Positions 20,773 through 39,615 of a stretch of 39,615 nt of DNA are shown here, in pieces (the first letter of the stretch is position 1; every line of letters starts with the position of its first letter). Under the pieces are notes generated by a model. The model saw nothing but the letters and a program-made list of their open reading frames with translations, was not told the origin of the DNA and made no database searches. This stretch comes from Clostridiales bacterium (GTDB lineage Bacteria; Bacillota; Clostridia; Lachnospirales; Lachnospiraceae): contig JAAYHD010000053.1 of the NCBI GenBank assembly GCA_012735495.1, positions 1 through 39,615 of the forward strand, read 5' to 3'. A program made the translations under genes and the position numbers.

Positions 20773-21414
20773 ATGGAACAAAGGTCCATCAAGGTTTATG
20801 CGCCCGATAACAAGAAAATTTCACTGAAGGTGATACCGGGGCATTTTGCCACATCAAATTCTCACATCAACCTGTATATCGACCTTACAGCCGCAAAAAC
20901 CCGTTTGAGCGATGCCATGGAAGCAGCGCGTGTTATGGCCAGGCAATATTTAAATAATGTAATAATTGATACGATTGTCTGCCTGGACAACTGTGAGGTT
21001 ATAGGGGGCTTTCTGGCCAAGGAACTGACCGATGCGGGAATCATGTCACAGAACATGCACAAGACAATGTATATTGTTTCGCCGGAATTCAATACGAACG
21101 GTCAGATGATCTTCAGGGACTGCAACCAGGGAGCCATATTTAATAAGAATATCCTGCTGCTGGTTGCATCCGTGACAACCGGAGATACCATCAGGAGAAG
21201 CCTGGAATGCATAAGGTATTACGGAGGACGGGTAACCGGGATTAGTGCCATATTTTCCGCGGTGGAGGAGGTCGAGGGCATGAAGGTCAATTGTATTTTC
21301 AGAAAATCGGATCTGCCCGACTACCAAAGCTATAAAATTAATGAATGCCCTTTGTGCAATGTAGGTCAAAAGCTTGATGCAATTGTAAACGGATATGGTT
21401 ACATGAGACTGTGA
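20773..21414 (+). CDS. phosphoribosyltransferase-like protein with degenerate PRPP loop (213 aa)
   Basis: A type-I phosphoribosyltransferase fold related to orotate phosphoribosyltransferase. The core strand-loop reads ILLLVASVTTGDTI at residues 127-140. In active enzymes the two residues before the T-T-G turn region are acidic (D/E-D/E) and bind PRPP; here they are Ala132-Ser133. A C-terminal E-C-P-L-C pair (Cys192, Cys195) is seen in OPRT-like relatives. The protein may be a regulator or a ligand-binding relative rather than a PRTase. AAGGGGG lies six bases before the ATG. It is monocistronic. Confidence 0.7.
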   Translation: MEQRSIKVYAPDNKKISLKVIPGHFATSNSHINLYIDLTAAKTRLSDAMEAARVMARQYLNNVIIDTIVCLDNCEVIGGFLAKELTDAGIMSQNMHKTMYIVSPEFNTNGQMIFRDCNQGAIFNKNILLLVASVTTGDTIRRSLECIRYYGGRVTGISAIFSAVEEVEGMKVNCIFRKSDLPDYQSYKINECPLCNVGQKLDAIVNGYGYMRL

Positions 21415-21575: not shown

Positions 21576-21604
21576 ATGACTTTTTTGCAGTAGTGTGCTA
21601 TAAT
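21576..21604 (+). promoter_or_regulatory. promoter of the mannan-utilisation operon
   Basis: ATGACT (21576-21581), 17 bases, TATAAT (21599-21604), with an extended TG-C before the -10. This is the only strong promoter seen ahead of the 18-kb operon. The 314-base stretch from 21415 to 21728 has no gene: it holds the terminator, two operator copies and this promoter. Confidence 0.7.
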
Positions 21605-21666: not shown

Positions 21667-21728
21667 ATGCACCCTTACTACAAAGAAAATTCTCCATATT
21701 ATAGTAATTGAGCGTTGACGAGGTAGCC

Positions 21729-23327
21729 ATGAATATAAAAAGATTACATATCACAATATGGATTTTACTGCTGGCATTAATTCTGACAGCATGCGGCACA
21801 AATAAAGATACCGATACCGACATAAATGACAATAAAGCAACAGGTGGAGACATATCACAGGAAGTCCCGGGCGATGAAGCCGGCGGCGAAGAAATCATAG
21901 AACCGGAAGTAATACCGGTATATCTTGAAGGTGAACAAAAGCTCGTATATGCCGTTGAAGCGGAGGATGGGTCGTTTACCGGCAATGTAGGAACTGACGA
22001 CAGCGGTTCAGGATACACGGGAACAGGTTATGTCAAGGGCTTCGAAAAAGATAATGACACCATGACGGTGGTGATATCCGTCGAACAGGACGGAAAGTAT
22101 GATTTAAGGTTTGTCACCGCCACAATGGGTGGATATAAAGAGAACTATGTATATGTGGACGGGGAAAACATGGGAGTGATTGTTACCGAGACCACGGATT
22201 TTTCGGATTCCGTTCTGGAGCATGTATACCTGTCCGCAGGAGAACATGAGGTTACGGTAAAAAAATACTGGGGATGGATTAAGATAGACAGATTAGAGGT
22301 ATATACTGCAAAGCAAATAAATCCTGAGAAATATAACATAAAGCCGGTTCTTGCGAATAAGAATGCAACGGAGAACACAAAACGGCTTATGAGTTACCTG
22401 TGCGACATATATGACGAGTATTTCCTTTCCGGCCAGTATTGCGATTCGGGTCAATACGGCAAGGAATTTGTGGTAATCAAAAGAGCAACGGGAAAGACGC
22501 CGGCCATATTGGGGCTGGATTTCATGGAATATACGCCGTCCAGGGTTGAAAACGGAAGCAAGGGCAAACAGACCGAGCTTGCGATTAATTTCTGGAATAA
22601 CGGCGGAATTGTCACGTTCTGTTGGCACTGGAACGCCCCGAGCAAATACCTTACCAAGGAGTGGTACAGGGGATTCTATACGGAAGCGACCAACATTAAT
22701 CTGAAAAAAATCATGGACGGAGATGATCAGGAAGGCTATGACCTCCTGATGAGAGACATAGACGCGATTGCGCAGGAGTTGTTAAAGCTTCAGGAGGCGG
22801 ATGTGCCGATATTGTGGAGGCCGCTTCATGAAGCCAGCGGCGGATGGTTCTGGTGGGGAGCGTCGGGACCGGAAGCGTATATAAAGCTTTATAAACTGTT
22901 ATTCGAAAAGCTGACATATGAATATGGACTGAACAATCTCATCTGGGTATGGAACGGACAGGACAAGGATTGGTATCCGGGTGATGAATATGTGGATATC
23001 ATCGGCGAGGATATCTACCCCGGTGAAAGGGTATACACATCTCAGATCGCCCGCTACCTGAAAGCCCTTGGCTATACGAGCTCGGCAAAGCTCACATACC
23101 TGACCGAAAATGGCTGCCTGTTCGACCCGGATCTTGCCATTAGGGACGGAGCGATGTGGGGAAGCTGGTGTACCTGGGGCGGAGAGTTTGTCGCGAAGGA
23201 TATCGGGATATATACTCTCAGCGAGCAGTACACCGAGGAATATATGCTGAAAAAGGTATACTCACATGAGAAGGTATTATGCCTGGAGGATTTGCCGGAT
23301 CTTACCGCGTATCCAATTGGTGAGTAA
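21729..23327 (+). CDS. GH26 beta-mannanase lipoprotein with CBM35-like module (532 aa)
   Basis: An endo-beta-1,4-mannanase that cuts mannan at the cell surface. A lipoprotein signal ends at Cys22 (LTAC) and is followed by an acidic linker to about residue 65. A CBM35-like sandwich (about 72-196, with YAVEAEDGSFTGN and KIDRLEVYTAKQ) comes next, then the GH26 barrel (about 212-525). Catalytic residues are clear: acid/base Glu368 in WRPLHEASGGWFWWG and nucleophile Glu460 in YLTENG. The ATG at 21729 has GAGGT upstream; an upstream TTG frame at 21708 lacks its own ribosome site. It is the first gene of the operon. A related GH26 specificity (for example mannobiohydrolase or mixed-linkage glucanase) is less likely, given the GH130 gene downstream. 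Confidence 0.93.
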   Translation: MNIKRLHITIWILLLALILTACGTNKDTDTDINDNKATGGDISQEVPGDEAGGEEIIEPEVIPVYLEGEQKLVYAVEAEDGSFTGNVGTDDSGSGYTGTGYVKGFEKDNDTMTVVISVEQDGKYDLRFVTATMGGYKENYVYVDGENMGVIVTETTDFSDSVLEHVYLSAGEHEVTVKKYWGWIKIDRLEVYTAKQINPEKYNIKPVLANKNATENTKRLMSYLCDIYDEYFLSGQYCDSGQYGKEFVVIKRATGKTPAILGLDFMEYTPSRVENGSKGKQTELAINFWNNGGIVTFCWHWNAPSKYLTKEWYRGFYTEATNINLKKIMDGDDQEGYDLLMRDIDAIAQELLKLQEADVPILWRPLHEASGGWFWWGASGPEAYIKLYKLLFEKLTYEYGLNNLIWVWNGQDKDWYPGDEYVDIIGEDIYPGERVYTSQIARYLKALGYTSSAKLTYLTENGCLFDPDLAIRDGAMWGSWCTWGGEFVAKDIGIYTLSEQYTEEYMLKKVYSHEKVLCLEDLPDLTAYPIGE

Positions 23328-23364
23328 CGGCAAATAAGACATATATGTTTAAGGGGGATTTGAC

Positions 23365-26300
23365 ATGCTTTTCAACCGGCATCTGAAGAAAATCGTTACA
23401 TATATTCTTATAACAGTTTTAGCAGGAATATCTATACAGATAAATAAATCGGACGCATGGGCGGCTACCGATATCCCCGAAGAGGTTTTTGAGGAAACGG
23501 TAAGGGCTCATTCTGTTGACAGTTCAATTGTTCCGTATAATGAGTACATCCAGGCATTTGAGCAGGTATATCCTGATAAGGAAGTCGTTATATATGCCGC
23601 GGATTTCACAAGATATGAAGAGGACGGCATAACCGTAACTCCGCAGGTTTTCAGCGATTACGAGGGTATGGAAGGGGACTCCGTACTGACACAGGACAAT
23701 GCCCTGATAGAATTTGACGTGGAGATTGAGGAAAGCGGCTTTTACTATCCCTGCCTTACATATTATCCTGTCGAAGGCAAAAGCTCCGATATTCAGAGAA
23801 GCTTCTTCGTGGACGGAAAGCTCCCTTATAATGAAATGGCGTTGATTGAGTTCTACCGGGTATGGAAGCTGGAAGCGGAAGAAAGATATATCGACGAAAA
23901 CGGTGTCGAGGTAATAAGGTGGAGGAAGGATAACCAGGGAAACGACTTAAAGCCAAAGAGCGTTGAAGCGCCTCAATGGATATCGTCATACTGCTACGAC
24001 AATGAAGGCTATATTACCAGTCCTTTGGCCATATATCTTGAAAAAGGAAAACACACTATCAGCATGCTTTCTTTAAGGGAACCCATGCTGCTTCACGACA
24101 TTACACTGAAAAAAGCGGAACCTGTGCTTGATTATGCGGCAACCAAGGCGCAGTGGGACGCAGCGGGCCATGGAAATACTTCCGGACAGTTTGTAAGAAT
24201 TGAAGCCGAGAACGCATCCCTTACATCATCACAGATGCTGTATCCAAGGCAGGACCAGTCATCACCTGCCGTTTACCCATCAAGTCCAAAAACACTTCTT
24301 AACAATACCATTGGAGACAACTCCTGGAGAAATGCCGGGCAGTGGATCCAATGGGATTTTGAGGTGCCCGAATCCGGATATTATCATATCTCATTACATG
24401 CAAAGCAAAGTTATCTCAGAGGCATAAATGTATCCAGAAAAATAACAATAGACGGCGTGGTTCCGTTCGATGAAATGTCCGACTACGAGTTTAAATACAA
24501 CTCCCGCTGGAGAAATATCGTGCTTTCGGACAGCGAAGGCGATCCGTATTATTTCTATCTGGAAAAAGGCAAGCATACCATACGCATAGAAGCGGTACTT
24601 GGCGACTTCGGAAACATCGTCAGCGAGGTCCAGGAAGCGGTAACAAAGCTTAACTCCATTTACCGCAAGGTTATCCGCATAACCGGTGTTGCTCCCGATA
24701 AATACAGGGACTACCAGATTGAAAGCGTCCTGCCCAACATCGGGGCGGAGCTTACGTATGTAAGGGACCAGCTGGCGGCGGCGATAACCAGGCTCAGGGA
24801 GGTTGCGGGCAAGAACTCCGACAAAGAAACGGTGCTACGTACCATGCGCGACCAGCTTACCCAATTGATCAAGGACCCGGAGGATTTCGTCAAAGTCATA
24901 ACCTCGTTCAGGATTAACGTGCGCGCGTGCGGCAACTGGATAACACAGGTTATTCAGCAGCCCCTGGCTATTGACAGGATTAACATATACTCGCCGGATG
25001 TCAAGGTTAAATATGAGAATACATCCTTCTGGTCGAGATTGGTATATGAAATAAAGAGACTTTTCTACTCGTTCATCATTGACTATAACATGATAGGAAA
25101 TATTTCCGAGGACGATTCCGAGAATGTAACACTAACCCTTTGGATCGGAACGGGAAGAGACCAGGCCAATGTGATAAAATCACTGATTGACGATAATTTT
25201 ACAAACACAACGGGCATAAACGTGAATGTTCAGCTTGTTGACATGAGCAGCCTGCTTCGCGCAACTCTGGCCGGTGAGGGACCGGATGTGGCCATTCAGG
25301 TTGGCCCAACCCAGACTGCGACCGCACAGGTGGCCGCCAACATGATAAGCCAGGCAAATGATACCCCGGTCAACTACGGCATACGTAATGCCGTGCTGGA
25401 TCTGACGCAGTTTGATGATTTCCAGGAGGTTGCGGCGAGGTTTTCCGAAAGCGCCCTGGTTCCGTTCACTTACGACGGCGCGGTTTATGCGCTGCCGGAT
25501 ACCCAGACCTTCCTTATGATGTTCTACAGAATGGATATTCTCAAGGAAATAGGGCTTTCCATACCGAGAACATGGGATGAGGTCAAGGTTGCAATGACGG
25601 TGCTGTCAAAGAACCAGATGGATTTCGGCATGATGCCCGGTGAGCAGGTCTTTGCCATGCTGCTGTATCAAATGGGCGGATCATATTACAACGAGGACGG
25701 AACAAGATCCGCACTCGATTCCGATATTTCCATAAATGCTTTCAAGCAATACTGTGAATTCTACACGGATTACAAGATAGACAAGGAAACAAGCGTTGAG
25801 GAAAGATTCAGAACGGGCGAATGCCCCCTGGTAATTGCCGACTATACCTTCTATAACAACCTTCAGGTATCGGCACCCGACATCAAGGGACTCTGGGGAT
25901 TCACTGTCGTCCCCGGCATCATGCAGGAGGACGGCACCATAAACCATACTACGGGAAGCATAGGTCTGGTGGACATGATTATGGCCGACACCAAGCATCC
26001 TGAAGAAAGCTGGGAGTTCCTGAAATGGTGGACATCCGAAGAAACCCAGACCATATACGGCAGGGAAATGGAAAGCCTTATGGGCTCCAGCGCGAGAATA
26101 GCCACCGCAAACCTGAAAGCATTGGGCAACCTGGCATGGCCTGTGGATGATTATAAAGAGCTTATGAAGCAATTTGAACAGGTTAAAGGTATTCCCCAGG
26201 TTCCGGGAGGATACTATTCATGGCGTAATGTTAACAATGCATTCTATACCGTAACGACCGAAACGGACACGGCCAATCCCAGGGAAGAGCTCATGGAAAA

Positions 26301-26376
26301 GGTTATTTACATAAATGCGGAAATCGAGCACAAGCTGAGAGAATTGGGCTTGGAAATTCAAGAGGAAGATAGGTAG
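23365..26376 (+). CDS. large extracellular solute-binding protein with N-terminal carbohydrate-binding-like modules (1003 aa)
   Basis: A secreted or membrane-held binding protein of an ABC sugar importer, about twice the usual size. The signal or anchor covers residues 8-27, with a likely cut near Ala-Trp-Ala at 31-33 and no lipobox. Two sandwich modules follow (about 75-250 and 275-412). The second opens with RIEAENASL, as CBM6/35 modules do, and both finish with YLEKGKHTI. A helical linker (415-545) leads to a family-1 type binding domain (about 586-990) with LTLWIGTGRDQ, GEGPDVAIQVGPTQ, YALPDTQTFLMMFYRMD and WEFLKWWTSEE. It lies 37 bases after GH26 and 10 before the first permease. Such fused proteins occur in clostridial and Paenibacillus clusters. 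The ligand is presumed to be manno-oligosaccharide. Confidence 0.88.
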   Translation: MLFNRHLKKIVTYILITVLAGISIQINKSDAWAATDIPEEVFEETVRAHSVDSSIVPYNEYIQAFEQVYPDKEVVIYAADFTRYEEDGITVTPQVFSDYEGMEGDSVLTQDNALIEFDVEIEESGFYYPCLTYYPVEGKSSDIQRSFFVDGKLPYNEMALIEFYRVWKLEAEERYIDENGVEVIRWRKDNQGNDLKPKSVEAPQWISSYCYDNEGYITSPLAIYLEKGKHTISMLSLREPMLLHDITLKKAEPVLDYAATKAQWDAAGHGNTSGQFVRIEAENASLTSSQMLYPRQDQSSPAVYPSSPKTLLNNTIGDNSWRNAGQWIQWDFEVPESGYYHISLHAKQSYLRGINVSRKITIDGVVPFDEMSDYEFKYNSRWRNIVLSDSEGDPYYFYLEKGKHTIRIEAVLGDFGNIVSEVQEAVTKLNSIYRKVIRITGVAPDKYRDYQIESVLPNIGAELTYVRDQLAAAITRLREVAGKNSDKETVLRTMRDQLTQLIKDPEDFVKVITSFRINVRACGNWITQVIQQPLAIDRINIYSPDVKVKYENTSFWSRLVYEIKRLFYSFIIDYNMIGNISEDDSENVTLTLWIGTGRDQANVIKSLIDDNFTNTTGINVNVQLVDMSSLLRATLAGEGPDVAIQVGPTQTATAQVAANMISQANDTPVNYGIRNAVLDLTQFDDFQEVAARFSESALVPFTYDGAVYALPDTQTFLMMFYRMDILKEIGLSIPRTWDEVKVAMTVLSKNQMDFGMMPGEQVFAMLLYQMGGSYYNEDGTRSALDSDISINAFKQYCEFYTDYKIDKETSVEERFRTGECPLVIADYTFYNNLQVSAPDIKGLWGFTVVPGIMQEDGTINHTTGSIGLVDMIMADTKHPEESWEFLKWWTSEETQTIYGREMESLMGSSARIATANLKALGNLAWPVDDYKELMKQFEQVKGIPQVPGGYYSWRNVNNAFYTVTTETDTANPREELMEKVIYINAEIEHKLRELGLEIQEEDR

Positions 26377-26386
26377 GAGGATAAAT

Positions 26387-27334
26387 ATGGCTGCGAAGAG
26401 AAAAAATGTACCTGCAGATGCCGCTGAAATCGCAAGAATGCAGGGAACACTCAGATACCGGATACGGAAAAACAGAATATCTTATGTAATGCTGGCACCG
26501 TATTTCATCCTCTTCTTCCTGTTTACGGTATTGCCTGTCATAGCGTCGATATTTTTCAGCTTTACGGATTTTAATGTTCTTGAGCTTCCAAAATTCGTAG
26601 GTTGGAAGAATTACATAAAACTGCTCCTTGAAGATGACATATTTATTATATCGCTGAAAAACACGCTGCTGTTTGCGGTAATAACAGGACCCATAAGCTA
26701 CCTGCTTTGCCTGCTGTTCGCGTGGATTATCAATGAGTTCAAGGGAAAACTTAGGGCATTCCTTACACTGATATTCTATGCCCCAAGCATAAGCGGAAAC
26801 GCATATGTGGTATGGAACCTGATTCTTACGGGCGACCGTTACGGATATTTAAACGGATTGCTCCTCAAGTACGGAATTATTGATGAAGCCATCCTGTGGA
26901 TGAAGACGGAGAAGTACATATTGCCGATACTTATGATCGTACAGCTGTGGTTAAGCCTTGGTACCGGATTCTTAGCCTTCATAGCAGGACTTCAGACCAT
27001 AGATCATACGATGTATGAAGCTGCTGCAATTGACGGTGTAAGGAACCGTTGGCAGGAGCTGTGGTTTGTCACGCTGCCTGCAATGAAGCCGCAGTTGATG
27101 TTCGGTGCAGTCATGCAGATTACACAGTCATTTGCCGTTGCCGATATTTCCATCAACCTGGCAGGAAACCCGTCAGTTAATTATGCCGGTGCTACGGTAA
27201 TTACCCACCTCCTGGATTACGGTTCCACCAGATTTGAGATGGGATATGCGTCTGCTATTGCAACCATTCTATTCCTGCTAATGGTGGGAACAAATAAACT
27301 GGTGCAGAAAATGCTTAGGAGGGTTGGTGAATAA
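26387..27334 (+). CDS. ABC sugar importer permease 1a, MalF/UgpA type (315 aa)
   Basis: A six-helix inner-membrane permease of the carbohydrate CUT1 class. The first membrane span is YVMLAPYFILFFLFTVLPVI. The cytoplasmic EAA loop that docks the ATPase reads EAAAIDGVRNRWQELWFVTLP-like at about residues 220-240. A Lys/Arg-rich N-terminal tail of about 30 residues precedes the first helix. AGGAGGA precedes the ATG, 10 bases after the binding-protein gene. Its stop codon overlaps the start of the next permease by one base, so the pair is translationally coupled. No ATPase gene is present in the window; a shared MsmX-type ATPase is the likely motor. Confidence 0.93.
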   Translation: MAAKRKNVPADAAEIARMQGTLRYRIRKNRISYVMLAPYFILFFLFTVLPVIASIFFSFTDFNVLELPKFVGWKNYIKLLLEDDIFIISLKNTLLFAVITGPISYLLCLLFAWIINEFKGKLRAFLTLIFYAPSISGNAYVVWNLILTGDRYGYLNGLLLKYGIIDEAILWMKTEKYILPILMIVQLWLSLGTGFLAFIAGLQTIDHTMYEAAAIDGVRNRWQELWFVTLPAMKPQLMFGAVMQITQSFAVADISINLAGNPSVNYAGATVITHLLDYGSTRFEMGYASAIATILFLLMVGTNKLVQKMLRRVGE

Positions 27335-28251
27335 TGAGCAGGAGAAGGCAAAGAGTCATTGTAGACTACTCCAACCGAAAATGGGTTCCCTTCTGGATGA
27401 GAGCCAAGCAGACGAAGCTCAACCGTTCGAAGGCGGGAAACGGACTGTTATTTGGCCTGATGTTCATCTGTGGAATATTCATGGCGCTTCCGCTTGTCAT
27501 GGTTGTCAACAACGCATTAAAGCCACTGGATGAATTGTTTCAGTATCCGCCCAAGGTTTTTGTTAGGAATCCAACCCTTGAGAACTTTTCGGACCTGTTT
27601 GTGCTTATGAGCGACACATGGGTGCCGTTTTCAAGATATATAATGAACACGGTAATCATAACAATGGGCGGCATGGTCGGGCATGTGCTGTGCGCATCCC
27701 TGGCGGCGTATCCGCTGGCGAAACATAAATTTCCGGGTAGAGATATTCTGTTCAACATGGTTATACTGTCAATGATGTTTTCCTGGACGGTAACACAGAT
27801 ACCCCAATATCTCATTATTTCGCTGATGGGAATTAACAATACATACCTGGCATTGATCCTCCCGGCATGGTCCTTCGGCATGGGACTGTACCTGATGAAG
27901 CAGTTCATGGAGCAGATTCCCGATTCATTGATTGATTCCGCCAAGATAGACGGAGCCGGCGAGTTCAGTATATTCTGGAGGATTGTGATGCCGAATGTTA
28001 AGCCCGCATGGCTGACGCTGGCCATATTCCAGTTCCAGTACATGTGGGGCAATACCGGCGGAACATTCCTGCGTGACGAAGAGCTCAAGCCCCTGCAGTT
28101 TGCCCTGCAGCAGATTGTACAGGGCGGAGCGGCAAGAGCCGGTGCAGGCGCGGCTGTCACATTTGTTATTGCCGCAGTGCCAATAACATTCTTCCTGATT
28201 GCTCAGAGCAATATTATGGAGACTATGACTACTTCCGGTATGAAGGAATGA
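27334..28251 (+). CDS. ABC sugar importer permease 1b, MalG type (305 aa)
   Basis: The second permease of the first pair, forming a heterodimer with the product of the gene it overlaps. Membrane spans start with LLFGLMFICGIFMALPLVM. The periplasm-facing segment FRYPP-like (FQYPPKVFVRNPTLENF) is typical of MalG relatives. The EAA loop is the variant SAKIDGAGEFSIFWRIVMP (about residues 207-225). The ATG sits in TAATGA at the junction. It is followed within 15 bases by the NHL/TPR gene, whose ribosome site overlaps its last codons. Confidence 0.93.
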   Translation: MSRRRQRVIVDYSNRKWVPFWMRAKQTKLNRSKAGNGLLFGLMFICGIFMALPLVMVVNNALKPLDELFQYPPKVFVRNPTLENFSDLFVLMSDTWVPFSRYIMNTVIITMGGMVGHVLCASLAAYPLAKHKFPGRDILFNMVILSMMFSWTVTQIPQYLIISLMGINNTYLALILPAWSFGMGLYLMKQFMEQIPDSLIDSAKIDGAGEFSIFWRIVMPNVKPAWLTLAIFQFQYMWGNTGGTFLRDEELKPLQFALQQIVQGGAARAGAGAAVTFVIAAVPITFFLIAQSNIMETMTTSGMKE

Positions 28252-28265
28252 GAGGTGTTATCCAC

Positions 28266-29765
28266 ATGAGAATGTCTAAAAGGTGTTCAAGGGCAATAAT
28301 TATTATTCTGGCTGTTGTAGGCATGCTTGGCAACTGCGGTGTTGCCTTGGCGAACGATTTGCCTTATGACACCTATAACTATAACTTCTATGAATATATC
28401 GTTTATACCCCGGCGGCATATGTTCCCGCAGGCTCCATATCGGGCACCCGTCTTGTATATAACGGCGAGCCCCTGGGGGCTTTCAAAAACCCGCAGGACA
28501 TATGCAAGACACCTGACGGCGAGGTAGTTATAGCCGACACCGGCAACAACAGGATAGTATTCCTCAGCAAGGACATGAAAACCGTTATCAAGGTCATAAG
28601 TGAATTTGAAAATAACGGTGAAGCTGACAAATTCTCATCACCTACCGGTGTTTGCGTATCAAAGAAAAACGAGCTGTACATTGCGGATACGTACAACAAC
28701 AGGATTGTGGTTCTGGACAATAATGGCAGTCTTATAAAGATAATCAGGGATCCTCAATCGGAAATCCTGGAGGAAGGATATGTTTTCTCTCCCTTGAAGG
28801 TAACCGTTGACTACGCGGACAGGGTTTACTGCATAGCCCAGAATATGTTTGAGGGCATCATGGTATTTGAAGATAACGGCCAGTTTGTAGGCTTTATAGG
28901 AACCATTGAGGTTAAGATATCCCTTTGGGATAAATTCTGGAAAAGAATCGCCACCAAGGAAGAGAGGTCGAATCAAAAACTCTTTATTCCTACCGAGTTT
29001 ACCGGCATTGATATAGATGACGACGGATTCGTATACGCTTCCAACATAGATGAGGATGGAACCCAAGCGGTACGAAGGCTCAATCCCAAGGGCGAGGATG
29101 TTATTAAAAAAGGCGCGAACAAGAATCTCGGAGGAGATCTGTGGACGAGCGGATATACAAGATATTCCGGGCCATCACAGATAACCGACGTTGTATATAG
29201 ACAGAAAGGTATGTATTCACTCCTGGACAGAAGAAGGGGGAGAATATTTACCTATGACCATGAAGGCAATTTGCTGTATATATTCGGAGGATTGGGTACC
29301 CAGGCGGGAACATTCGTTACTCCTGTGGCAATTGAAAATATAGGCAATACAATTATCGTTCTAGATGCATACAGGGCGGAGATTCTCATATTCACGGAAA
29401 CAATGTACGGAAGCCTAATCAATCAGGCGGTGGCGTTAAGATATGACGGGGATGAAACAAAGGCCGTGGAGCTATGGGAGAAGGTCCTTGAACTGGATGA
29501 GAATAACGAACTTGCATATGTAGGTATAGGAAAAGCATACCTTACCGCCGGGGATTATGTAAATGCCATGAAGTACTTGAAACGCGGAATGAGCAGCGAG
29601 TTCTATTCAATAGCATTCAGAAGATACAGAAACAAGGTGCTTAAGGAAAACATGAGCTATATCCTCACCGGCCTGATTGTGGCTGTGTTTGCCCTGGTAA
29701 TCGGAGTGAGTATCTATCGCAGGAAGAAAGGAATAGTCAGGGAGGAGGGGCTGCTGAATGAGTAA
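28266..29765 (+). CDS. NHL beta-propeller / TPR membrane protein (499 aa)
   Basis: A secreted propeller held in the membrane by its C-terminus. The signal peptide ends near Ala-Leu-Ala (27-29). NHL repeats fill about residues 65-380, with the recurring IADTGNNRIV and IADTYNNRIV blades. One or two TPRs follow (about 383-442, with ALRYDGDETKAVELWEKVLE), then a membrane span (about 464-484) and a basic tail. NHL propellers are protein- or glycan-interaction platforms. The topology suggests a surface scaffold beside the permeases. The ATG at 28266 is preferred since AGAGGTG lies eight bases before it; an ATG at 28248 overlaps the permease stop. Its 3' end overlaps the YIP1 gene by eight bases. 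Its function in sugar uptake is unknown. Confidence 0.85.
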   Translation: MRMSKRCSRAIIIILAVVGMLGNCGVALANDLPYDTYNYNFYEYIVYTPAAYVPAGSISGTRLVYNGEPLGAFKNPQDICKTPDGEVVIADTGNNRIVFLSKDMKTVIKVISEFENNGEADKFSSPTGVCVSKKNELYIADTYNNRIVVLDNNGSLIKIIRDPQSEILEEGYVFSPLKVTVDYADRVYCIAQNMFEGIMVFEDNGQFVGFIGTIEVKISLWDKFWKRIATKEERSNQKLFIPTEFTGIDIDDDGFVYASNIDEDGTQAVRRLNPKGEDVIKKGANKNLGGDLWTSGYTRYSGPSQITDVVYRQKGMYSLLDRRRGRIFTYDHEGNLLYIFGGLGTQAGTFVTPVAIENIGNTIIVLDAYRAEILIFTETMYGSLINQAVALRYDGDETKAVELWEKVLELDENNELAYVGIGKAYLTAGDYVNAMKYLKRGMSSEFYSIAFRRYRNKVLKENMSYILTGLIVAVFALVIGVSIYRRKKGIVREEGLLNE

Positions 29766-30390
29766 GTATTTCTCCAAGGAAAAACTGAAGTATGTATTTT
29801 ATACGATGTCCCACCCGGTGGACGGCTATTACTGGATCCGTCATATCGATAAGGGAAGCGTGCCGATAGCTGTTATTCTTGTAATGCTGTTTTCCTTCAG
29901 TTTTACTCTCAACCGTCTTAAAGCCAGCTTTGTTGTCAACGAGTTGGATCCCCGTACGGTTGACAGCCTTACCGAGTTGGGAGGTGTGCTCCTGCTTTAT
30001 ATCCTGCTCTGTATAAGCAATTGGTCGGTTACATGTCTTATGCAGGGAGAAGGAAGGCTTAAGGACATTGCCATAGCAATAGGCTATGCGATGCTACCGC
30101 TGATCATATCCTTTAATCTTGCGACATTGGTCAGCCAGTTCATTGCCGATGGCGAGGAGGCTTTCTACTACCTGATATTAGGGGTGGGAATAGCATACGG
30201 GTTTATTATGATGCTTATAGGCATCATGCAGGTACATAACTATACCTTGGCTAAAACACTTATAACCCTGTTTCTTACGCTGTTAGCGGCATTTATTATA
30301 ATATTCATAGGTCTGCTGATTGTGGACCTTGTAACCAAGGTTTACAACTTCTTTGAGAGTTTATACATAGAGATTGTATTCAGAATGTAA
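29758..30390 (+). CDS. YIP1-family membrane protein (210 aa)
   Basis: A polytopic membrane protein of the YIP1 fold with about five hydrophobic helices: SVPIAVILVMLFSFSFTL, LLLYILLCISNW, AIGYAMLPLIISFNLATLV, YLILGVGIAYGFIMMLIGI and LITLFLTLLAAFIIIFIGLL. The short loop QGEGRLKDIAIAIGYAMLP is the family's conserved segment. Bacterial YIP1 proteins have no settled role; the name comes from eukaryotic Rab-interacting relatives. It overlaps the preceding NHL/TPR gene by eight bases, so the two are tightly coupled and probably act together. It is followed by the DUF5696 gene. Confidence 0.85.
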   Translation: MSKYFSKEKLKYVFYTMSHPVDGYYWIRHIDKGSVPIAVILVMLFSFSFTLNRLKASFVVNELDPRTVDSLTELGGVLLLYILLCISNWSVTCLMQGEGRLKDIAIAIGYAMLPLIISFNLATLVSQFIADGEEAFYYLILGVGIAYGFIMMLIGIMQVHNYTLAKTLITLFLTLLAAFIIIFIGLLIVDLVTKVYNFFESLYIEIVFRM

Positions 30391-30433
30391 GCAACGTATC
30401 TCAAGAAAATGCTGAGTGGAGAATGATGTTAGC

Positions 30434-33040: not shown

Positions 33041-33051
33041 GGAGAATAAAA

Positions 33052-33963
33052 ATGAAAAAAAGACTTACTCTTTCACAGAAAAGAATGATTAATGGCTACC
33101 TATTCATCCTTCCTTGGTTGATTGGTTTTATATTCTTTTATATCAGGAGCATATTGCTGACCACCCAGTTCTCATTTTCACGACTTTCGGTGGAAACGGT
33201 GGGAGGCTACACCCTGGACCATGTAGGTCTGCAAAATTACGTGTATGCTTTCCGTGAGCACGGTACCTTCAAGCAGATACTGACATCCTCGATTTTCAAC
33301 ATGGTGCTGGACGTTCCGCTTATCATATTTTTCAGCCTGTTCATGGCCATCCTGCTGAACAGGGAGTTCAAGGGCAGAACCCTTGTCCGTGCAATTTTCT
33401 TCCTGCCGGTTATTATGAACAGCAGCGCGATTGCAACCGCCCTGCGGTTAAGTGAGCAGTTTGTGGCGGGAGGAATTTCGGCGGGCAGCAGCCAGATGTC
33501 GACGGAAACAGTATCGTCCACAGTCAATGTATCCTATTATATTGACCTGTTTGGTCAGCTGGCGCTGCCGAACAGGGTACTGGATTACATAGTAGCCGCC
33601 GTAAGCCGCATAAACAGCATCATTACGGCATCAGGAGTGCAGATTGTAATATTCCTTGCGGCGCTCCAGTCCATACCAAGCTCGATGTACGAGGTTGCCA
33701 AAATCGAAGGTGCCACAGCTTATGAGACCTTCTGGAAGGTTACATTCCCCATGGTAATGCCTCACATAATAACAAACGTCGTATATACGGTAATTGATAA
33801 ATTTGCCGAAAGCGATGTGGTGACCCTGGCATATAATACGGCATTTACGGATTTTAATTATGGACTCAGTTCGGTATTCAGCCTTGTAAGTACGGCGGTA
33901 ACCTGCCTGATATTGATCCTGGCGGTCGGATTCCTGCAAAAACGGACGTTCTATTACAATTAA
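33052..33963 (+). CDS. ABC sugar importer permease 2a, MalF/LplB type (303 aa)
   Basis: The first permease of a second pair. The N-terminus is a short basic tail followed by GYLFILPWLIGFIFFYIRSI. The EAA loop reads SMYEVAKIEGATAYETFWKVTFP (about residues 215-237). Between the third and fourth helices it carries an extra outside loop of about 45 residues (about 137-182) rich in Ser, Thr and Gly, longer than in permease 1a. GGAGAAT precedes the ATG, 11 bases after the DUF5696 stop codon. It pairs with the permease at 34009 and probably uses the lipoprotein at 37089 as its binding protein, based on order alone. Confidence 0.92.
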   Translation: MKKRLTLSQKRMINGYLFILPWLIGFIFFYIRSILLTTQFSFSRLSVETVGGYTLDHVGLQNYVYAFREHGTFKQILTSSIFNMVLDVPLIIFFSLFMAILLNREFKGRTLVRAIFFLPVIMNSSAIATALRLSEQFVAGGISAGSSQMSTETVSSTVNVSYYIDLFGQLALPNRVLDYIVAAVSRINSIITASGVQIVIFLAALQSIPSSMYEVAKIEGATAYETFWKVTFPMVMPHIITNVVYTVIDKFAESDVVTLAYNTAFTDFNYGLSSVFSLVSTAVTCLILILAVGFLQKRTFYYN

Positions 33964-34008
33964 CATCGTTTTATATACTTAATCGCAAGAAAGGAAACAG
34001 GTATTAAG

Positions 34009-35007
34009 ATGGATACTGGTAAAAGCGTAGGTATTAAAAACAGAATAAGGACAATAACCGAGAATCCGAAAATTGTGAACAGCACCAGGGGAATGAAGGC
34101 CGATTTTAAAAAGCTGCTAATCAAGGTTTTCAGCTTCGTTGTAATAGTAGGAATCTGCTATGTTATACTGTCGCCTATTATCGGCATGATAGTCAGCTCG
34201 TTCATGTCCGATTCGGACAGGTATAATCCGATGGTATACATGATTCCAACCAGTCCGACACTGGAAAAGTATAAGATATCATGGGCGAGAATGAATTATC
34301 TGCCTACCATGGGAAGAAACCTTCTCTATTCAATCACCCTGATGCTGATACAGATTTTCATTTGTTCAATGGTCGGCTACGGATTTGCAAGATTCCGATT
34401 CCCGTTAAGGAGACTGCTGTTTGCCTGTGTGGTTGTTATGATAGTTATTCCCGACCACACCATCATGCTTCCGCTTTACATGACATTCAAGAATTTTGAT
34501 CCCTTGGGGCTGGTATCCTTGTTTGCGGGAAAACCCTTGGTCCTTATGGGGACCCCGATACCAATGTATATTATGACCATATTCGGGTGCGGTGTCCGTT
34601 CAGGACTGTACATATACATTTTTAACCAGTTTTTCAGAAACCTGCCAAAGGAGATCGAAGAGGCAGCTTTGGTTGACGGAGCGGGCATATGGTATACATA
34701 TTTCAGGATAATGCTTGTAAATGCCATACCTGCCGTTGTAACCGTCGCAGTTTTTTCGATGGTATGGCAGTACAATGACACGTTTTACGCAAAGTTATTT
34801 CTGATCAGCGAAAATATAGTAATCAGCAAGAAGATAACCACACTGCAGTCGGTAATAGCCAACGTTGATAAGATCCTGGACACGTCCATACAGGAGTTGT
34901 ATTTAAGTGCCGGCGTAGTGCTGATTATGCTGCCGATTATTATCATCTATGTCGCTCTTCAGAAATACTTCATAGAGGGTGTGGAGCGCAGCGGTATTGT
35001 CGGATAG
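34009..35007 (+). CDS. ABC sugar importer permease 2b, MalG/LplC type (332 aa)
   Basis: The second permease of the second pair. A hydrophilic N-terminal tail of about 35 residues precedes the first membrane span VFSFVVIVGICYVILSPIIG. The EAA loop is EEAALVDGAGIWYTYFRIML (about residues 220-239). It is somewhat longer than permease 1b because of the N-terminal tail. AAAGGAAAC precedes the ATG with suboptimal spacing. It lies 45 bases after permease 2a. A 65-base gap before the next gene contains an AT-rich stretch that could hold a weak internal promoter, but no clear -35 was seen. Confidence 0.92.
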   Translation: MDTGKSVGIKNRIRTITENPKIVNSTRGMKADFKKLLIKVFSFVVIVGICYVILSPIIGMIVSSFMSDSDRYNPMVYMIPTSPTLEKYKISWARMNYLPTMGRNLLYSITLMLIQIFICSMVGYGFARFRFPLRRLLFACVVVMIVIPDHTIMLPLYMTFKNFDPLGLVSLFAGKPLVLMGTPIPMYIMTIFGCGVRSGLYIYIFNQFFRNLPKEIEEAALVDGAGIWYTYFRIMLVNAIPAVVTVAVFSMVWQYNDTFYAKLFLISENIVISKKITTLQSVIANVDKILDTSIQELYLSAGVVLIMLPIIIIYVALQKYFIEGVERSGIVG

Positions 35008-35072
35008 TATGATAATTCGCTTCAGCCCAAAACATAAAAACTTTATATAAAATAAAGAAGGAGGAGTAAAAA

Positions 35073-37025
35073 TTGAAGGCAAAAAAACTGATTGCGCTTT
35101 TACTCTGCGCACTACTGGTTCTGTCCTTGGTAGGATGTAAAAAAGACGATACCAAGACAGACACTCTTGTGGATGGAATCGAGGATACATCCGGACAGGA
35201 GGATCAGAAAGAAGACACAAAGAGTGACGACCAGGCTCAGAAAGAAGACGGCAAAAAAGATGAACCTGCAGTAGAAGTCCAGGAAGCCAGCATCGACTTC
35301 GAAGACGGTTTATATGGCTTTGTTGCCATCTATACCGCTCCGCCGAATGCAGACGCATCCGAGCTGTCCATTGCTGACTTCAACGGAAGCAAGGCTTTGA
35401 AGGTTACCAATATGAACGGTAAGTACCCTTATGTTGCTATCGACATTGCAAGCCTTGCGGGGGACAAGATTACCGAAATCAAGACCATTACCATGGATGT
35501 AGGTGTTGAGCATCCTGACGGAAAATTCCATGCCATATCGGGAAAGATTTATGCTTACAGCGGTGAAAAGAGAAAAGAATCAAACGATCCCTTCTCTGTA
35601 TATGTCGCTACAAGGAACCCGAACACGGCAAAGGCCGTACTTGACGAAGGTGAAGAATTTGTAGTCGGATATCAGAACATGATTATAGTAGCTCTTGATA
35701 CCGATACCGGAGCACAGGCAGGTGTAGGCAGTGCAAACCTGTATATCGACAATATCCGCCTGTTGGACGCAGCCGGCAATGTTATAAAGGTTGACACCAG
35801 CGTGGCATTTGCGGAGCCTCCGGGATTCTCCGAGGTTGACAGAACCAACCTGATTCCGGTTAAGAATGAAGTAGAGATATGGTCAAATGACAGCGGCGCT
35901 GCCTGGGCACAGGGAACCGGATGCCTGACAGTTGCACAGGGCGGAACATTTGATCCGGCTCTTATAACCGAGGATTCCGTAATAACCATTTACTATCAGT
36001 CCGAAGGCGATATGTGGCTGGTACTGCAATCCTGGGTAGACGGAGCACCGTTCGGATGGCAGAGAGTTGCCGACCAGGGAGCTTCCATAAAGAATCCTAG
36101 CGGTACAATCGCTCAGATTACATACGATCAGCTGGTACAGTACTGCAACACAACGGATTTTGTAACTTATCTCAGCATGATTCAATGCGAAAGCGATAAG
36201 GACTGGAGCGTATCCAGCGTAACAATCGGACAGAGATCCGGTATTGTTAGTCTTAAGAATGAAGTAGTTATCTGGACCGATGACAAGGGCGATGCCTGGG
36301 CACAGGGAACCGGCTGCCTGACTTTGAAACAGGGCGGAACATTTGATCCTGCTTTAATCCAGCCCGGCTGTGTAATAAATATTGAGTATAAGTCAGAGGG
36401 CAATATGTGGCTGGTACTTCAGTCAGGGGATCCGGGTGCTCCATTCGGATGGCAGAGAGTTGCCGATGGAGGAGCTTCATATACCGACGGTTCGGTATGC
36501 CAGATAACCTATGACCAGCTCGTTGAATACTGCAAGACTGACGATTTCGTTACTTACTTGGATATGATCCAGTGCGAAAGCGATCAGCCTTGGGAAGTTT
36601 ACAAGGTTTCCATTGGTTATCCTTCAGGATTGGTACCTGTAGCAAAGGAAACTGTTATAACTGAGTTTGAAGGCGACAGTGACGCTGCATGGGCACAGGG
36701 CAAGGGCGTTCAGACCCTAGCTTATGGCGGAACCTTTGATCCCGCTTTGATACAGCCCGGCTGCATCTTTTCAATTGACTACAAGTCCGACGGAAATATG
36801 TGGGTAGTAATGCAGTCCGGGGCAGAAGGCGCACCTTACGGCTGGCAGAGAGTGGCCGATAACGGAGTTGCAGCAAGCAACGGCAAACGTGTACAAATAA
36901 CCTATGATCAGCTTGTACAGTACTGCGGTACCGAGGACTTTGTCGGAACCTTAAGCCAGCTGCAATGTGAAAGTGACCAGCCTTGGGAGGTTTACAGGTT
37001 CTCGATTGGTTATCCCGTTGAATAA
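35073..37025 (+). CDS. surface lipoprotein with three 130-residue repeats, probable glycan-binding protein (650 aa)
   Basis: A lipoprotein (Cys22 in LVGC) with an acidic Lys/Asp/Glu linker to about residue 70. A beta-rich N-terminal module follows (about 73-245, with SIDFEDGLYGF and NLYIDNIRLLD). Three tandem repeats fill residues 260-390, 391-519 and 520-650. Each repeat contains AWAQG, GGTFDPALI, a Y-x-S-[ED]-G-[DN]-M-W segment, QS, GAP-[FY]-GWQRVAD, QITYDQLV-[QE]-YC, QCESD and a closing beta strand. Conserved Trp and Tyr fit a sugar-stacking role. I do not recognise the repeat family; by context it should bind mannan or its oligosaccharides. The start is the TTG at 35073, five bases after AAGGAGGAG and exactly where the signal begins. 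It sits between permease 2b and its binding protein. Confidence 0.78.
   Translation: MKAKKLIALLLCALLVLSLVGCKKDDTKTDTLVDGIEDTSGQEDQKEDTKSDDQAQKEDGKKDEPAVEVQEASIDFEDGLYGFVAIYTAPPNADASELSIADFNGSKALKVTNMNGKYPYVAIDIASLAGDKITEIKTITMDVGVEHPDGKFHAISGKIYAYSGEKRKESNDPFSVYVATRNPNTAKAVLDEGEEFVVGYQNMIIVALDTDTGAQAGVGSANLYIDNIRLLDAAGNVIKVDTSVAFAEPPGFSEVDRTNLIPVKNEVEIWSNDSGAAWAQGTGCLTVAQGGTFDPALITEDSVITIYYQSEGDMWLVLQSWVDGAPFGWQRVADQGASIKNPSGTIAQITYDQLVQYCNTTDFVTYLSMIQCESDKDWSVSSVTIGQRSGIVSLKNEVVIWTDDKGDAWAQGTGCLTLKQGGTFDPALIQPGCVINIEYKSEGNMWLVLQSGDPGAPFGWQRVADGGASYTDGSVCQITYDQLVEYCKTDDFVTYLDMIQCESDQPWEVYKVSIGYPSGLVPVAKETVITEFEGDSDAAWAQGKGVQTLAYGGTFDPALIQPGCIFSIDYKSDGNMWVVMQSGAEGAPYGWQRVADNGVAASNGKRVQITYDQLVQYCGTEDFVGTLSQLQCESDQPWEVYRFSIGYPVE
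35850..37022 (+). repeat. three tandem coding repeats of about 390 bp
   Basis: Units at about 35850-36242, 36243-36629 and 36630-37022 code for the homologous modules of the lipoprotein. They are clearly alike at protein level but diverged in DNA, so this is an old triplication rather than a recent tandem expansion. Units 2 and 3 share the DPALIQPGC segment; unit 1 differs there. Confidence 0.8.
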
Positions 37026-37088
37026 CTCTAGGTAACCATTTAGGATGATGCGTATAATTATGCCCAAAAATAAAGGAGGTAAAAATTA

Positions 37089-38582
37089 ATGAAATTTTTA
37101 AAGAAATTTCTGGCACTTCTGCTTGTGTGCTCGCTTGTTATAGCAGCAGTTGCTTGTAACAAGTCGGATTCCGGTGAAAAAGATACATCCGGTAAGGAAG
37201 TTACAGATAATAAGAATGATACTGAAAAACAGGATGGCAAGCAGGATGATGGGAAAAAGGACGAAAACGGTTCATCAAGAAGTGGTGAAAAGAGAATCAT
37301 AAATATTGGTACATGGTGGGTACAATACTACGACAGTTCACATACTTCTCTTGAAGATGACCCGTCCTATTCGGGTACTCTTGCAGCACAGCTGAAGTTT
37401 GATAATGTAAAGAAGATTGAAGACAGATATAATGTTGAGTTTTATTGGCAGAACCTGACATATCAAGGCACATTGGAATCCTTGAATGTATCTGTTATGG
37501 CAGGAAAGCCTGACTGTGACATCTATCTGGTAGAGCTTAGCTTTGGTATTCCTGCAGCATTGAACGGTCTTGCAACAGATATGAAGACCGTCCTTCCTCC
37601 GGATCATGACCTGTTCACAGATCAGGTTATAGCAAGGTATCTTGACCTGGGCGATGGCAAGGCTAATCTCCTTAAGAGAGCAGAAGCTGCAAGTGTAGTT
37701 GAGGCAACATATCCTCTTGCTTTCAACCTCCAGCTGCTTCAGAAATACAATCTTGAGGATCCTCGCGAGCTCTATAAGAGGGGCGAATGGACCTGGGATA
37801 AGTTTATTGAGTACTGCCAGACTCTGACGGATGATACCGACGGAGACGGTAAGCCTGATGTATACGGATACTGTGGTTACATAAACGAGACATTTGAACA
37901 GTTGCTTCTGAGCAACGGAGCAAGCGTTGCCGCCACAACAACCGAAGAGCTTACCAGCGCAGCTACCGGTGAGGTTCTTCAGATGGTCTATGATATGTAC
38001 AATGTTTACAAGGTATGCTATCCTTACGACTTTGAATCCGGCTCTCCTAGTGATACCATGAGATTCAAATACAGGGATGGAAACATTGGCTTCTGGCCTT
38101 GCGCAGCATGGATTCTTGGTTCAAACGCTGACTATGACTACACCGGTGAAAATGGTGTTACCCTTGAGTTTGATACCGTATTCGTACAATGGCCTGTTGG
38201 CCCTTCAGGAAACCAGGAAACCAACGGCGGCAAGGTATCGGCCGGTGAGTACTACATTATTCCTGCAGGCGTAGAGGATCCTGAGCTGGTATTCAACGTA
38301 CTGTATGATATGTGGAACTGGTTTGACGGAGATACATCAATCCGTGACGACGAAGAGGCCCTGCACTGGTGGTATGCCGTTACAGCCAAGGACGAAGACC
38401 TCCAGGTTAACAATTTCAATGTTATGTTTGATGTAGGAAGCAGGGAAGTATTTGAGCTTTGGAATAATCTTAGCATCACTTATGACTTTGACAGCCTGAT
38501 CAAGGGTGAAATGACACCTGCACAGTTCCAGGAGACCCATAAGAATCAGGTACAGGATGCTCTGAATGCATATTTCAAATAA
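37089..38582 (+). CDS. extracellular solute-binding lipoprotein of an ABC sugar importer (497 aa)
   Basis: A family-1 binding protein with lipobox AVAC (Cys23) and a long charged linker (about residues 25-65). The mature part begins with RIINIGTWWVQYYDSSH. It continues with KKIEDRYNVEFYWQNLTYQ, a GKPDCDIYLVELSFG strand, GEWTWDKFIEYCQTL and a calcium-like loop TDGDGKPDVYGYCGY. Later segments are DGNIGFWPCAAWILGSN and VSAGEYYIIPAGVEDPELV. Aromatic residues are abundant, as expected for an oligosaccharide pocket. AAAGGAGGT precedes the ATG. A TATAAT at 37053-37058 might be an internal -10 that raises its expression, but no good -35 accompanies it. It is probably the partner of permeases 2a and 2b. 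Confidence 0.92.
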   Translation: MKFLKKFLALLLVCSLVIAAVACNKSDSGEKDTSGKEVTDNKNDTEKQDGKQDDGKKDENGSSRSGEKRIINIGTWWVQYYDSSHTSLEDDPSYSGTLAAQLKFDNVKKIEDRYNVEFYWQNLTYQGTLESLNVSVMAGKPDCDIYLVELSFGIPAALNGLATDMKTVLPPDHDLFTDQVIARYLDLGDGKANLLKRAEAASVVEATYPLAFNLQLLQKYNLEDPRELYKRGEWTWDKFIEYCQTLTDDTDGDGKPDVYGYCGYINETFEQLLLSNGASVAATTTEELTSAATGEVLQMVYDMYNVYKVCYPYDFESGSPSDTMRFKYRDGNIGFWPCAAWILGSNADYDYTGENGVTLEFDTVFVQWPVGPSGNQETNGGKVSAGEYYIIPAGVEDPELVFNVLYDMWNWFDGDTSIRDDEEALHWWYAVTAKDEDLQVNNFNVMFDVGSREVFELWNNLSITYDFDSLIKGEMTPAQFQETHKNQVQDALNAYFK

Positions 38583-38662
38583 TCCGCATTCATAGCTCCG
38601 TAAAGTGCATAAATACTTGAGACTGAGCTTACATGACTTAACTTACACTCAAGGAGGAATAT

Positions 38663-39615
38663 ATGAGTAATCTTAAAATGATAGCACCACCTGTACCTAA
38701 TGTGCCATGGCAGGAAAGACCGGAAGGTATAAAGAATGCTCCCGTATGGAGATATACCGAGAATCCCATTATCGGCAGAAATCCGATAAAAGGTGTTGCG
38801 AGAATCTTCAACAGTGCTGTTATGCCTTACGGAGATGGCTTTATCGGAGTCTTCAGAGGGGAGCAGACAGATGGTGTTCCTCACATATACCTTGGCAGAA
38901 GCAAGGACGGCATCCGCTGGGAGTTTGACGAAGAAAGGATACCCTTCGTCGACGAGGAAGGCAATCCTGCAATGCCGGTATATGCCTACGATCCCAGGCT
39001 TGTAAAGGTGGAAGACACCTATTACATAATCTGGTGTCAGGACTTCTACGGAGCATCGATTGGACTTGCCAAAACAACCGATTTTAAGACATTTACAAGA
39101 ATTGAAAGCCCGTTCATTCCGTTCAACAGGAATGCGGTTCTGTTCCCGAGAAAAATAAACGGCAAATACATGATGCTCAGCAGGCCTTCGGACAGCGGGC
39201 ACACACCTTTTGGAGACATCTTCATCAGTGAGAGCCCGGATATGATTTACTGGGGAAGACACAGGCATGTTATGAGCCGTGGAAGCAACTGGTGGGAGAG
39301 TCTTAAGATTGGTGCGGGGGCAGCTCCTATAGAAACCAATATCGGTTGGCTGCTTTTCTATCATGGTGTATGCCAAACCTGTAACGGCTATGTATATTCA
39401 ATCGGTGGCGCAATACTTGATCTTGAACAGCCGTCGATTGTCAAGTACCGCTGCAAGAACATTCTTCTTACACCGGAAGAATGGTACGAAGAACGGGGCT
39501 TTGTGCCTAACGTATGCTTCCCTTGCGCTACGATACATGACCCGGATACAGGCAGAATAGCCATCTATTACGGTGCGGCTGACAGCTATGTCGGCCTGGC
39601 ATTTACCCAGTTCGA
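38663..39615 (+). CDS. GH130 beta-mannoside phosphorylase, 3' end beyond window (317 codons seen)
   Basis: The frame opens at an ATG eight bases after AAGGAGG and stays open to the window's last base. It has no signal peptide, so it is cytoplasmic. The sequence shows the GH130 five-blade propeller: ENPIIGRNPIKGVARIFNSA, FRGEQTDGVPHIYLGRSKDG, YAYDPRLVKVEDTYYIIWC with the likely catalytic acid Asp110, FNRNAVLFPRKINGKY, SRPSDSGHTPFGD and APIETNIGWLLFYHG. Such enzymes cleave beta-1,4-mannosyl-glucose or manno-oligosaccharides with phosphate, giving alpha-mannose 1-phosphate. The two activities (GH130_1 versus GH130_2) cannot be separated here. It completes the mannan pathway of the operon. Confidence 0.93.
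   Translation, partial: MSNLKMIAPPVPNVPWQERPEGIKNAPVWRYTENPIIGRNPIKGVARIFNSAVMPYGDGFIGVFRGEQTDGVPHIYLGRSKDGIRWEFDEERIPFVDEEGNPAMPVYAYDPRLVKVEDTYYIIWCQDFYGASIGLAKTTDFKTFTRIESPFIPFNRNAVLFPRKINGKYMMLSRPSDSGHTPFGDIFISESPDMIYWGRHRHVMSRGSNWWESLKIGAGAAPIETNIGWLLFYHGVCQTCNGYVYSIGGAILDLEQPSIVKYRCKNILLTPEEWYEERGFVPNVCFPCATIHDPDTGRIAIYYGAADSYVGLAFTQF

Follow-up and report, generated by a model that had tools for sequence, protein, structure and literature searches.

A recurrent gene set of two putative CUT1 importers and three accessory proteins, equipped for mannan in a Lachnospiraceae genome

What do two permease pairs, with three accessory proteins set between them, contribute to a single mannan operon? 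The question is raised by contig JAAYHD010000053.1 of a Clostridiales bacterium of the Lachnospiraceae, the whole 39,615 nucleotides of which are hereafter called the window (an entire contig, G000:C24; the draft genome has 69 contigs that total 2.24 Mb). Twelve co-directional genes on the + strand occupy it from position 21729 to the contig end. The initial annotation saw in them a mannan operon with a double importer, in which a protein with NHL and TPR repeats (NHL/TPR), a YIP1-family protein and a DUF5696 protein, together referred to here as the trio, would form a complex that processes or delivers oligosaccharides. The answer that we tentatively favour, at somewhat below an even chance, is that the segment from the first binding protein (SBPbig) to the second (SBP2) constitutes one integrated oligosaccharide importer, with the trio as a membrane scaffold beside importer B and with DUF5696 gripping glycan chains, not cutting them. 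Certain plant-fibre-eating Gram-positives keep a tight set of about eight such genes, consisting of two sugar importers and three uncharacterised proteins of the surface and membrane.

Composition of the gene run

The genes are listed with their coordinates in the window, strand, assignment and basis.

21729..23327, + strand: GH26 lipoprotein with an N-terminal CBM35, a cargo enzyme and predicted surface beta-mannanase (PF02156, 9e-72; PF16990, 2e-18)
23365..26376, + strand: SBPbig, binding protein of 1003 aa (SBP_bac_1, PF01547, at residues 603-895)
26387..27334, + strand: PA1, MalF-like permease of importer A (PF00528; EAA-type loop; own clade)
27334..28251, + strand: PA2, MalG-like permease of importer A (PF00528; EAA-type loop; own clade)
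28248..29765, + strand: NHL propeller/TPR protein (NHL, E=3e-16; TPR; hydropathy)
29758..30390, + strand: YIP1-family membrane protein with about five hydrophobic segments (PF04893, 3e-12; hydropathy)
30416..33040, + strand: DUF5696 protein, putative membrane anchor at 20-50 followed by a GH129-like region (PF18952, 3e-194; GH129 structure matches; hhalign; column counts)
33052..33963, + strand: PB1, permease of importer B (PF00528; EAA-type loop; own clade)
34009..35007, + strand: PB2, permease of importer B (PF00528; EAA-type loop; own clade)
35073..37025, + strand: lipoprotein with three CBM65_1 stretches, a putative cargo-specific glycan binder (PF18259, 9e-59)
37089..38582, + strand: SBP2, binding protein of importer B (PF01547, 25.2 bits against a cut-off of 26; SBP2 family of the loci)
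38663..39615, + strand: GH130 beta-mannooligosaccharide phosphorylase, truncated where the contig stops (PF04041, 7e-71)

The gene order, the single strand and the close packing described by the initial annotation were recovered, the gaps between successive genes of the run from GH26 onwards to GH130 measuring -8 to +80 bases, and its “repeat lipoprotein” proved to contain three CBM65_1 stretches. It had also claimed that the run lacks an ATPase, and none of its genes matched an ABC ATPase in Pfam. The run is beyond chance, since the same order recurs across the phylum and on two named plasmids. What is conserved is the stretch bounded by SBPbig and SBP2 (23365-38582), the GH26, CBM65 lipoprotein and GH130 genes being the substrate-specific part. 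By gene content, GH26 outside the cell, an importer and GH130 inside would provide a route from mannan to mannose-1-phosphate, GH130 being incomplete at the contig end.

Importers A and B both display the composition of CUT1 systems, i.e. binding proteins and permeases with EAA loops, SBP2 falling just below the Pfam cut-off. All four permeases of the window lie above the PF00528 cut-off and look able to bind an ATPase, since EAA-type loops are kept in all four permease families. A single MalK/MsmX-type ATPase gene is found in the genome, outside the operon, as identified by one Pfam model (PF17912, the MalK-type OB domain). The permeases of the surveyed loci formed four clean clades in a tree, whose members were picked partly by profile label and are thus not fully independent of it; because of these clades, pairs A and B are, as far as the tree tells, distinct and without recent duplication.

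Among the nearest known systems are CUT1 importers using a common MsmX/MsmK ATPase. The cello-oligosaccharide importer Athe_0595-0598 of Caldicellulosiruptor bescii (Anaerocellum bescii) likewise consists of a binding protein and two permeases with no local ATPase; it differs by its one permease pair, and the available part of its description mentions no NHL, YIP1 or DUF5696 partner (PMC12838199). Such single-pair importers are powered by MsmK according to the portions at hand of two sources (PMC12838199, PMC12710961).

Conservation of the set and the relation between its two importers

In a phylum sample of 398 genomes, PF18952 matched in 52, strongly in 41 (E below 1e-90) and only weakly in 11; since at most three DUF5696 candidates were scored per genome, copy counts are lower bounds. 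The weak matches (about 18-37 bits) were left out of the membership count; the four that were fetched are one GH13, two DUF6259 and one GH129. Gene order was read in 70 loci, namely 63 strong-match neighbourhoods, the window, two other copies in its genome and four named relatives retrieved by a contig search with a single-protein query, all of them searched in six-frame translation with profiles derived from these loci. One candidate (L104; L and G numbers designate loci and genomes) was excluded as a GH129 before counting, and what looked like a fusion of DUF5696 in L140 proved to be masked sequence and was rejected.

YIP1 and NHL/TPR stand directly upstream of DUF5696 in 69 of the 70 loci, and PB1 stands directly downstream in 68, the misses all being contig edges. 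In 59 of 64 pairs, DUF5696 and PB1 either overlap or are separated by no more than 20 bases, and in 25 the overlap is of the ATGA type (-4). PB2 is found downstream in 64 of the 70 loci, the misses consisting of three contig edges, of L069, whose PB2 occupies another place within the stretch, and of L100 and L101. The trio is thus tied to importer genes as initially proposed, and the opposite outcome, an occurrence mostly away from them, was not encountered.

The 41 genomes with DUF5696 are spread over 18 family labels. An NHL-YIP1 profile (E up to 1e-20) retrieved 43 of the 398 genomes, i.e. the same 41, a contig-edge fragment in G223 and a weak match in G335. An SBPbig profile (E up to 1e-60) retrieved 48, i.e. 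the same 41, the genomes G075, G098 and G140, and four others (G007, G050, G087, G116) that match solely in the C-terminal binding domain. Both searches kept at most two candidates per genome, which makes these copy numbers lower bounds as well. None of the 41 genomes lacks NHL-YIP1 or SBPbig; the association with DUF5696 gave Fisher p values of 6e-54 for NHL-YIP1 and 1e-52 for SBPbig, which are uncorrected for kinship and overstate the number of independent cases. PA1 and PA2 were present inside the fetched stretch in 49 of the 70 loci. The co-occurrence at genome level speaks for a functional link of importer A, importer B and the trio, in which A need not adjoin B. Among the genus relatives of the window's organism, its own genome excluded, 28 of 33 possess DUF5696.

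The operon itself is already in print. The initial annotation knew of no described mechanism, and none was found; a counterpart of the operon is nevertheless reported in C. bescii as xloEFG-X-GH129-axoFGE-xynF and further genes (Athe_0174-0185), assigned to the regulators XynR and AraR, with expression that rises on xylan, according to the part of PMC8579813 available. Relative to cellobiose, the same text gives an increase of about 10- to 100-fold for the proximal genes and of 4- to 9-fold for the distal ones, and binding of XynR to the operator of this locus is described in the accessible part of PMC12285236. As listed in Table 3 of PMC8579813, the xylan locus has the gene order of our locus L078 (G163), which is a binding protein, two permeases, an NHL-YIP1 fusion, DUF5696, two permeases, a binding protein and GH43/CBM6. 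The window shares this succession from the first binding protein to the second, and adds the CBM65 lipoprotein before SBP2; it differs by its cargo, which is mannan and not xylan, and by NHL and YIP1 being separate proteins where those of C. bescii are fused. From gene order, Athe_0181 would be SBP2, and work cited in the available part of PMC10492685 calls Athe_0181 a non-catalytic protein helping mannan degradation. In the portions of the C. bescii literature at hand, X and GH129 are listed beside two transporters that are kept separate, with no unified system and with neither X nor GH129 counted as a transporter part. None of the open-licence papers searched names DUF5696, links YIP1 with a permease or NHL, or deals with Athe_0177.

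The same literature provides the main alternative, in which one operon merely houses two CUT1 importers that are independent and differ in specificity, and the trio serves importer B alone, either as an assembly factor or as a glycan presenter. We regard it as possible, if on the whole doubtful. Several observations side with it and weigh against a single integrated importer. The C. bescii importers are treated as distinct (XloEFG, AxoFGE), with the DUF5696 gene named GH129, in the part of PMC8579813 consulted. The trio adjoins PB1 wherever the contig suffices, whereas SBPbig was met inside the stretch fetched for no more than 47 of the 70 loci, and seven of the misses had at least 8 kb on both sides. 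An SBPbig-PA1-PA2 set stands alone in five genomes (loci L133, L135, L138, L139 and L141, in G058, G124, G150, G220 and G095, respectively), and G075, G098 and G140 carry SBPbig and permease A without DUF5696, on contigs of 3.1-4.3 kb; because of these stand-alone loci and A-only genomes, A may be an importer in its own right. A single integrated importer is also opposed by L100 and L101, both from G377, which have DUF5696 and PB1 with no PB2 seen nearby.

Tree distances bear on the same point. They co-vary across loci for the members of the set (rho 0.70 to 0.95), and a comparison of copies within genomes largely removes species history. In that comparison, the co-variation of DUF5696 and of YIP1 is stronger with pair B (0.79-0.92; DUF5696-PB1 0.90, n=32; YIP1-PB2 0.92, n=25; YIP1-PB1 0.89, n=30) than with PA1 and PA2 (0.53-0.78; DUF5696-PA1 0.64, n=14; DUF5696-PA2 0.53, n=13, p 0.06), as expected of an accessory of importer B. 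NHL shows no such preference, its values being 0.79 and 0.79 with pair B against 0.84 and 0.84 with pair A, which fits poorly with a scaffold placed at importer B. Some pairs across A and B are also high (PB1-SBPbig 0.87, n=11; PA2-PB1 0.85, n=13). Because of the latter values and of the lack of a pair B preference in NHL, these trees tell no more than that DUF5696 and YIP1 tend to accompany pair B. Two further facts speak against independent importers: not one of the 41 DUF5696 genomes is without SBPbig, the SBPbig-only cases lying on contigs so short that linkage is unreadable, and a single ATPase gene heads both permease pairs on a plasmid of Paenibacillus cellulosilyticus.

In L100 and L101 the place of PB2 is taken by proteins of 1611 and 1864 aa, the longer of which contains CBM and carboxypeptidase-regulatory-like domains.

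The accessory trio and the question of catalysis

The integrated importer that we favour would place its carbohydrate-handling parts outside the cell. In SBPbig, two N-terminal CBM35-like stretches, mutually similar by eye, precede the SBP_bac_1 domain. A profile of 26 SBPbig homologues matches many binding-protein structures, and its positions ~290-390 match the cycloisomaltooligosaccharide glucanotransferase 5x7g in a region which we take to be CBM35. NHL/TPR has an N-terminal signal-like segment (13-37) and a C-terminal hydrophobic, transmembrane helix segment (467-492) by a simple hydropathy count, and its propeller is predicted to lie outside the cell, tied into the membrane. In 43 of 69 loci NHL/TPR and YIP1 are fused into one protein, the remaining 26 having two (42 and 25 of 67 by another method), a fusion that supports a complex. 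In DUF5696 a basic N-terminus and a single hydrophobic segment (20-50, by hydropathy) lead us to predict an anchored extracellular domain.

This DUF5696 domain is, judging from profile comparisons, a distant relative of GH129. Its profile (46 members) matched the PDB entries 5opq (1e-13), 8rzg and 8rzk (2.5e-12), and 5wzq and 5wzn (NagBb, 1e-9), and hhalign gave 99% probability over 436 columns against five GH129-type proteins, while at E up to 0.1 Pfam Glyco_hydro_129 matched not one of these 46 proteins. The kinship to the GH129 glycosidases (NagBb 5wzn, 3,6-anhydro-galactosidase 5opq) thus extends over about 436 columns; DUF5696 departs from them by its membrane anchor, its tie to importer genes and its catalytic positions. 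In NagBb we take D435 to be the nucleophile and E478 the acid/base, and the letters at positions 435 and 478 agree with D and E; in a single hhalign profile alignment they face R666 and N708 of the window's protein. Among the 46 members the nucleophile-equivalent column reads R12 G6 S6 E4 Q3 F3 D3 and others, and the acid/base-equivalent column D11 E8 N7 S7 T4 and others. Acids occupy both columns in 2 of the 46 members, against D in 5/5 and E in 4/5 of the GH129-type proteins, so that in this alignment the GH129 catalytic pair is not conserved in DUF5696. Of the complex initially proposed to process or deliver oligosaccharides, the complex thus gains support from the NHL/TPR-YIP1 fusions, whereas the processing loses ground with these catalytic positions.

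DUF5696 proteins fall into two length classes, ~730-770 and 850-1000 aa, with an apparent insert of ~100-200 residues, delimited by eye, before the conserved region.

These same columns have to be weighed against an active DUF5696, i.e. a divergent GH129-like, membrane-bound glycosidase with other catalytic residues that would trim side chains before import, NHL-YIP1 being its anchor. Its GH129 kinship, its naming as GH129 in the C. bescii operon (PMC8579813, in the part available) and the conserved acids D675 (42/46), D355 (41/46) and E773 (41/46), the best conserved of the family, would suit such an enzyme, as would the frequent debranching types among the neighbouring enzymes. Two results weigh against a purely gripping role: the acid/base column keeps E or D in 19 of the 46 members, and a register shift by one brings in, near the nucleophile, a column with D20 Y7 S6 and others, which gives an acid in 21 of 46 and in both places in 11 of 46. 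A structure model predicted for DUF5696 from 5 sequences was unusable (mean pLDDT 36.9). A re-wired enzyme, or activity in some DUF5696 members, is therefore possible in view of these counts. The scarcity of acids at both catalytic columns nevertheless makes an active DUF5696 improbable, and one activity would be ill-suited to a cargo ranging from mannan to alginate and pectin.

We know of no transport role for YIP1. This, the NHL propeller and TPR as interaction modules, and a two-component pair preceding the Butyrivibrio fibrisolvens copy could evoke a sensor or regulator of the importers outside the transport path, whose propeller and TPR would sense a ligand and YIP1 transmit it, an idea made very improbable by the lack of any signalling domain in NHL/TPR, YIP1 or DUF5696 (Pfam) and by the assignment of the C. 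bescii operon to the ordinary regulators XynR and AraR in the accessible parts of PMC8579813 and PMC12285236.

Returning to the single integrated importer, we infer from the composition, order and co-occurrence of the set a physical complex working as follows. SBPbig-PA1-PA2 and SBP2-PB1-PB2, two CUT1-type importers, would share a stand-alone MsmX-type ATPase and import oligosaccharides cut from plant polysaccharides. SBPbig, with its extra carbohydrate-binding-like domains, may act as a capture arm that holds the substrate near the cutting enzyme; the model predicted for its N-terminal part from 3 sequences was likewise unusable (mean pLDDT 43.7). Next to PB1-PB2, a scaffold would be formed by the membrane protein YIP1 joined to the extracellular NHL/TPR propeller, together with the membrane-anchored DUF5696. 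The latter, descended from a GH129-type glycosidase, would most likely grip glycan chains without cutting them, and the trio would pass these chains to importer B, or to both importers. The window copy would be a mannan device through its attached GH26, outside, and GH130, inside, other enzymes being attached elsewhere.

SusCD systems and the AlgSM1M2Q1Q2 alginate importer are dedicated to capturing long glycans and have partners at the cell surface. The present module would work in a like manner, with many copies per genome (up to nine near-full-length DUF5696 copies in G533); no homology to them was seen, and it occurs in single-membrane bacteria with no TonB receptor. A bolder proposal, which we find rather unlikely, would make it an unrecognised class of two-engine glycan importer of Gram-positives, in which two CUT1 pairs served by one shared ATPase type are physically joined through the YIP1-NHL/TPR scaffold, a dead glycosidase, DUF5696, guides the chain, and long or branched chains are handed from A to B; in function it would be the SusCD analogue of bacteria with a single membrane. 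If the integrated reading is true, current annotation mistakes a structural subunit for a GH129 enzyme and presents a single machine as two transporters and two orphans, and the module would help explain the uptake of large, branched oligosaccharides by some Gram-positive fibre degraders. A. bescii, which is genetically tractable, very probably carries a copy.

Genome G533 has nine near-full-length DUF5696 copies, an expansion that recalls SusCD pairs; the count of ten in G555 includes fragments.

Cargo enzymes and other features

The enzymes beside the module were surveyed through 157 co-directional neighbours, reduced to 142 after removal of the window and four near-duplicate loci, of which 131 were scanned with Pfam. 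They include at least five GH43, at least four each of GH10, GH42, GH26 and GH5, at least three each of GH31 and alginate lyase, at least two each of GH130, GH28, GH3 and alpha-L-fucosidase, and at least one each of GH94 and pectic acid lyase, all lower bounds as they cover the 25 commonest families out of 70 in one list and out of 72 in the other. In the window's own genome, one of the two other copies lies beside GH43 and GH94 and the other beside GH5. Because the neighbouring enzymes vary, the module looks, from its gene neighbourhoods, like a chassis with exchangeable enzymes for mannan, xylan, pectin or alginate and not like a mannan device. The mannan operon of the initial annotation accordingly holds for the GH26 and GH130 content of this copy, mannan being the cargo of this copy only.

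Two plasmids bear the module. On plasmid pNP243 of B. fibrisolvens D1 it is accompanied by GH43. On plasmid NZ_CP054609.1 of P. cellulosilyticus (L129), the full module lies directly behind one ugpC ATPase gene, which thus precedes both permease pairs. Three LLM-class flavin-dependent oxidoreductases follow the module in L129 and no glycosidase occurs in the stretch shown; the cargo of this copy may be other than an ordinary polysaccharide.

CBM65 domains bind xyloglucan and beta-glucan. The CBM65 lipoprotein of the window (35073-37025) is in this respect odd for a mannan operon, and the substrate of the window copy may be glucomannan.

A search of viral contigs found no relatives, Rfam gave no match in the window at gathering thresholds, and a comparison of three proteins with PHROGs brought nothing of note. 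Upstream of GH26, a weak promoter-like site with an extended -10 can be proposed at 21576..21604 (+ strand), 31 such sites having been found against 39.7 expected from shuffles. The ATG of GH26 at 21729 leads to a protein with an LTAC lipobox, and an in-frame TTG is present at 21708. Ahead of GH26, positions 20773-21414 encode a protein of 213 aa without a Pfam match; L035 and L036 have proteins of 225 and 213 aa, respectively, in the corresponding position, the likeness being one of position and length.

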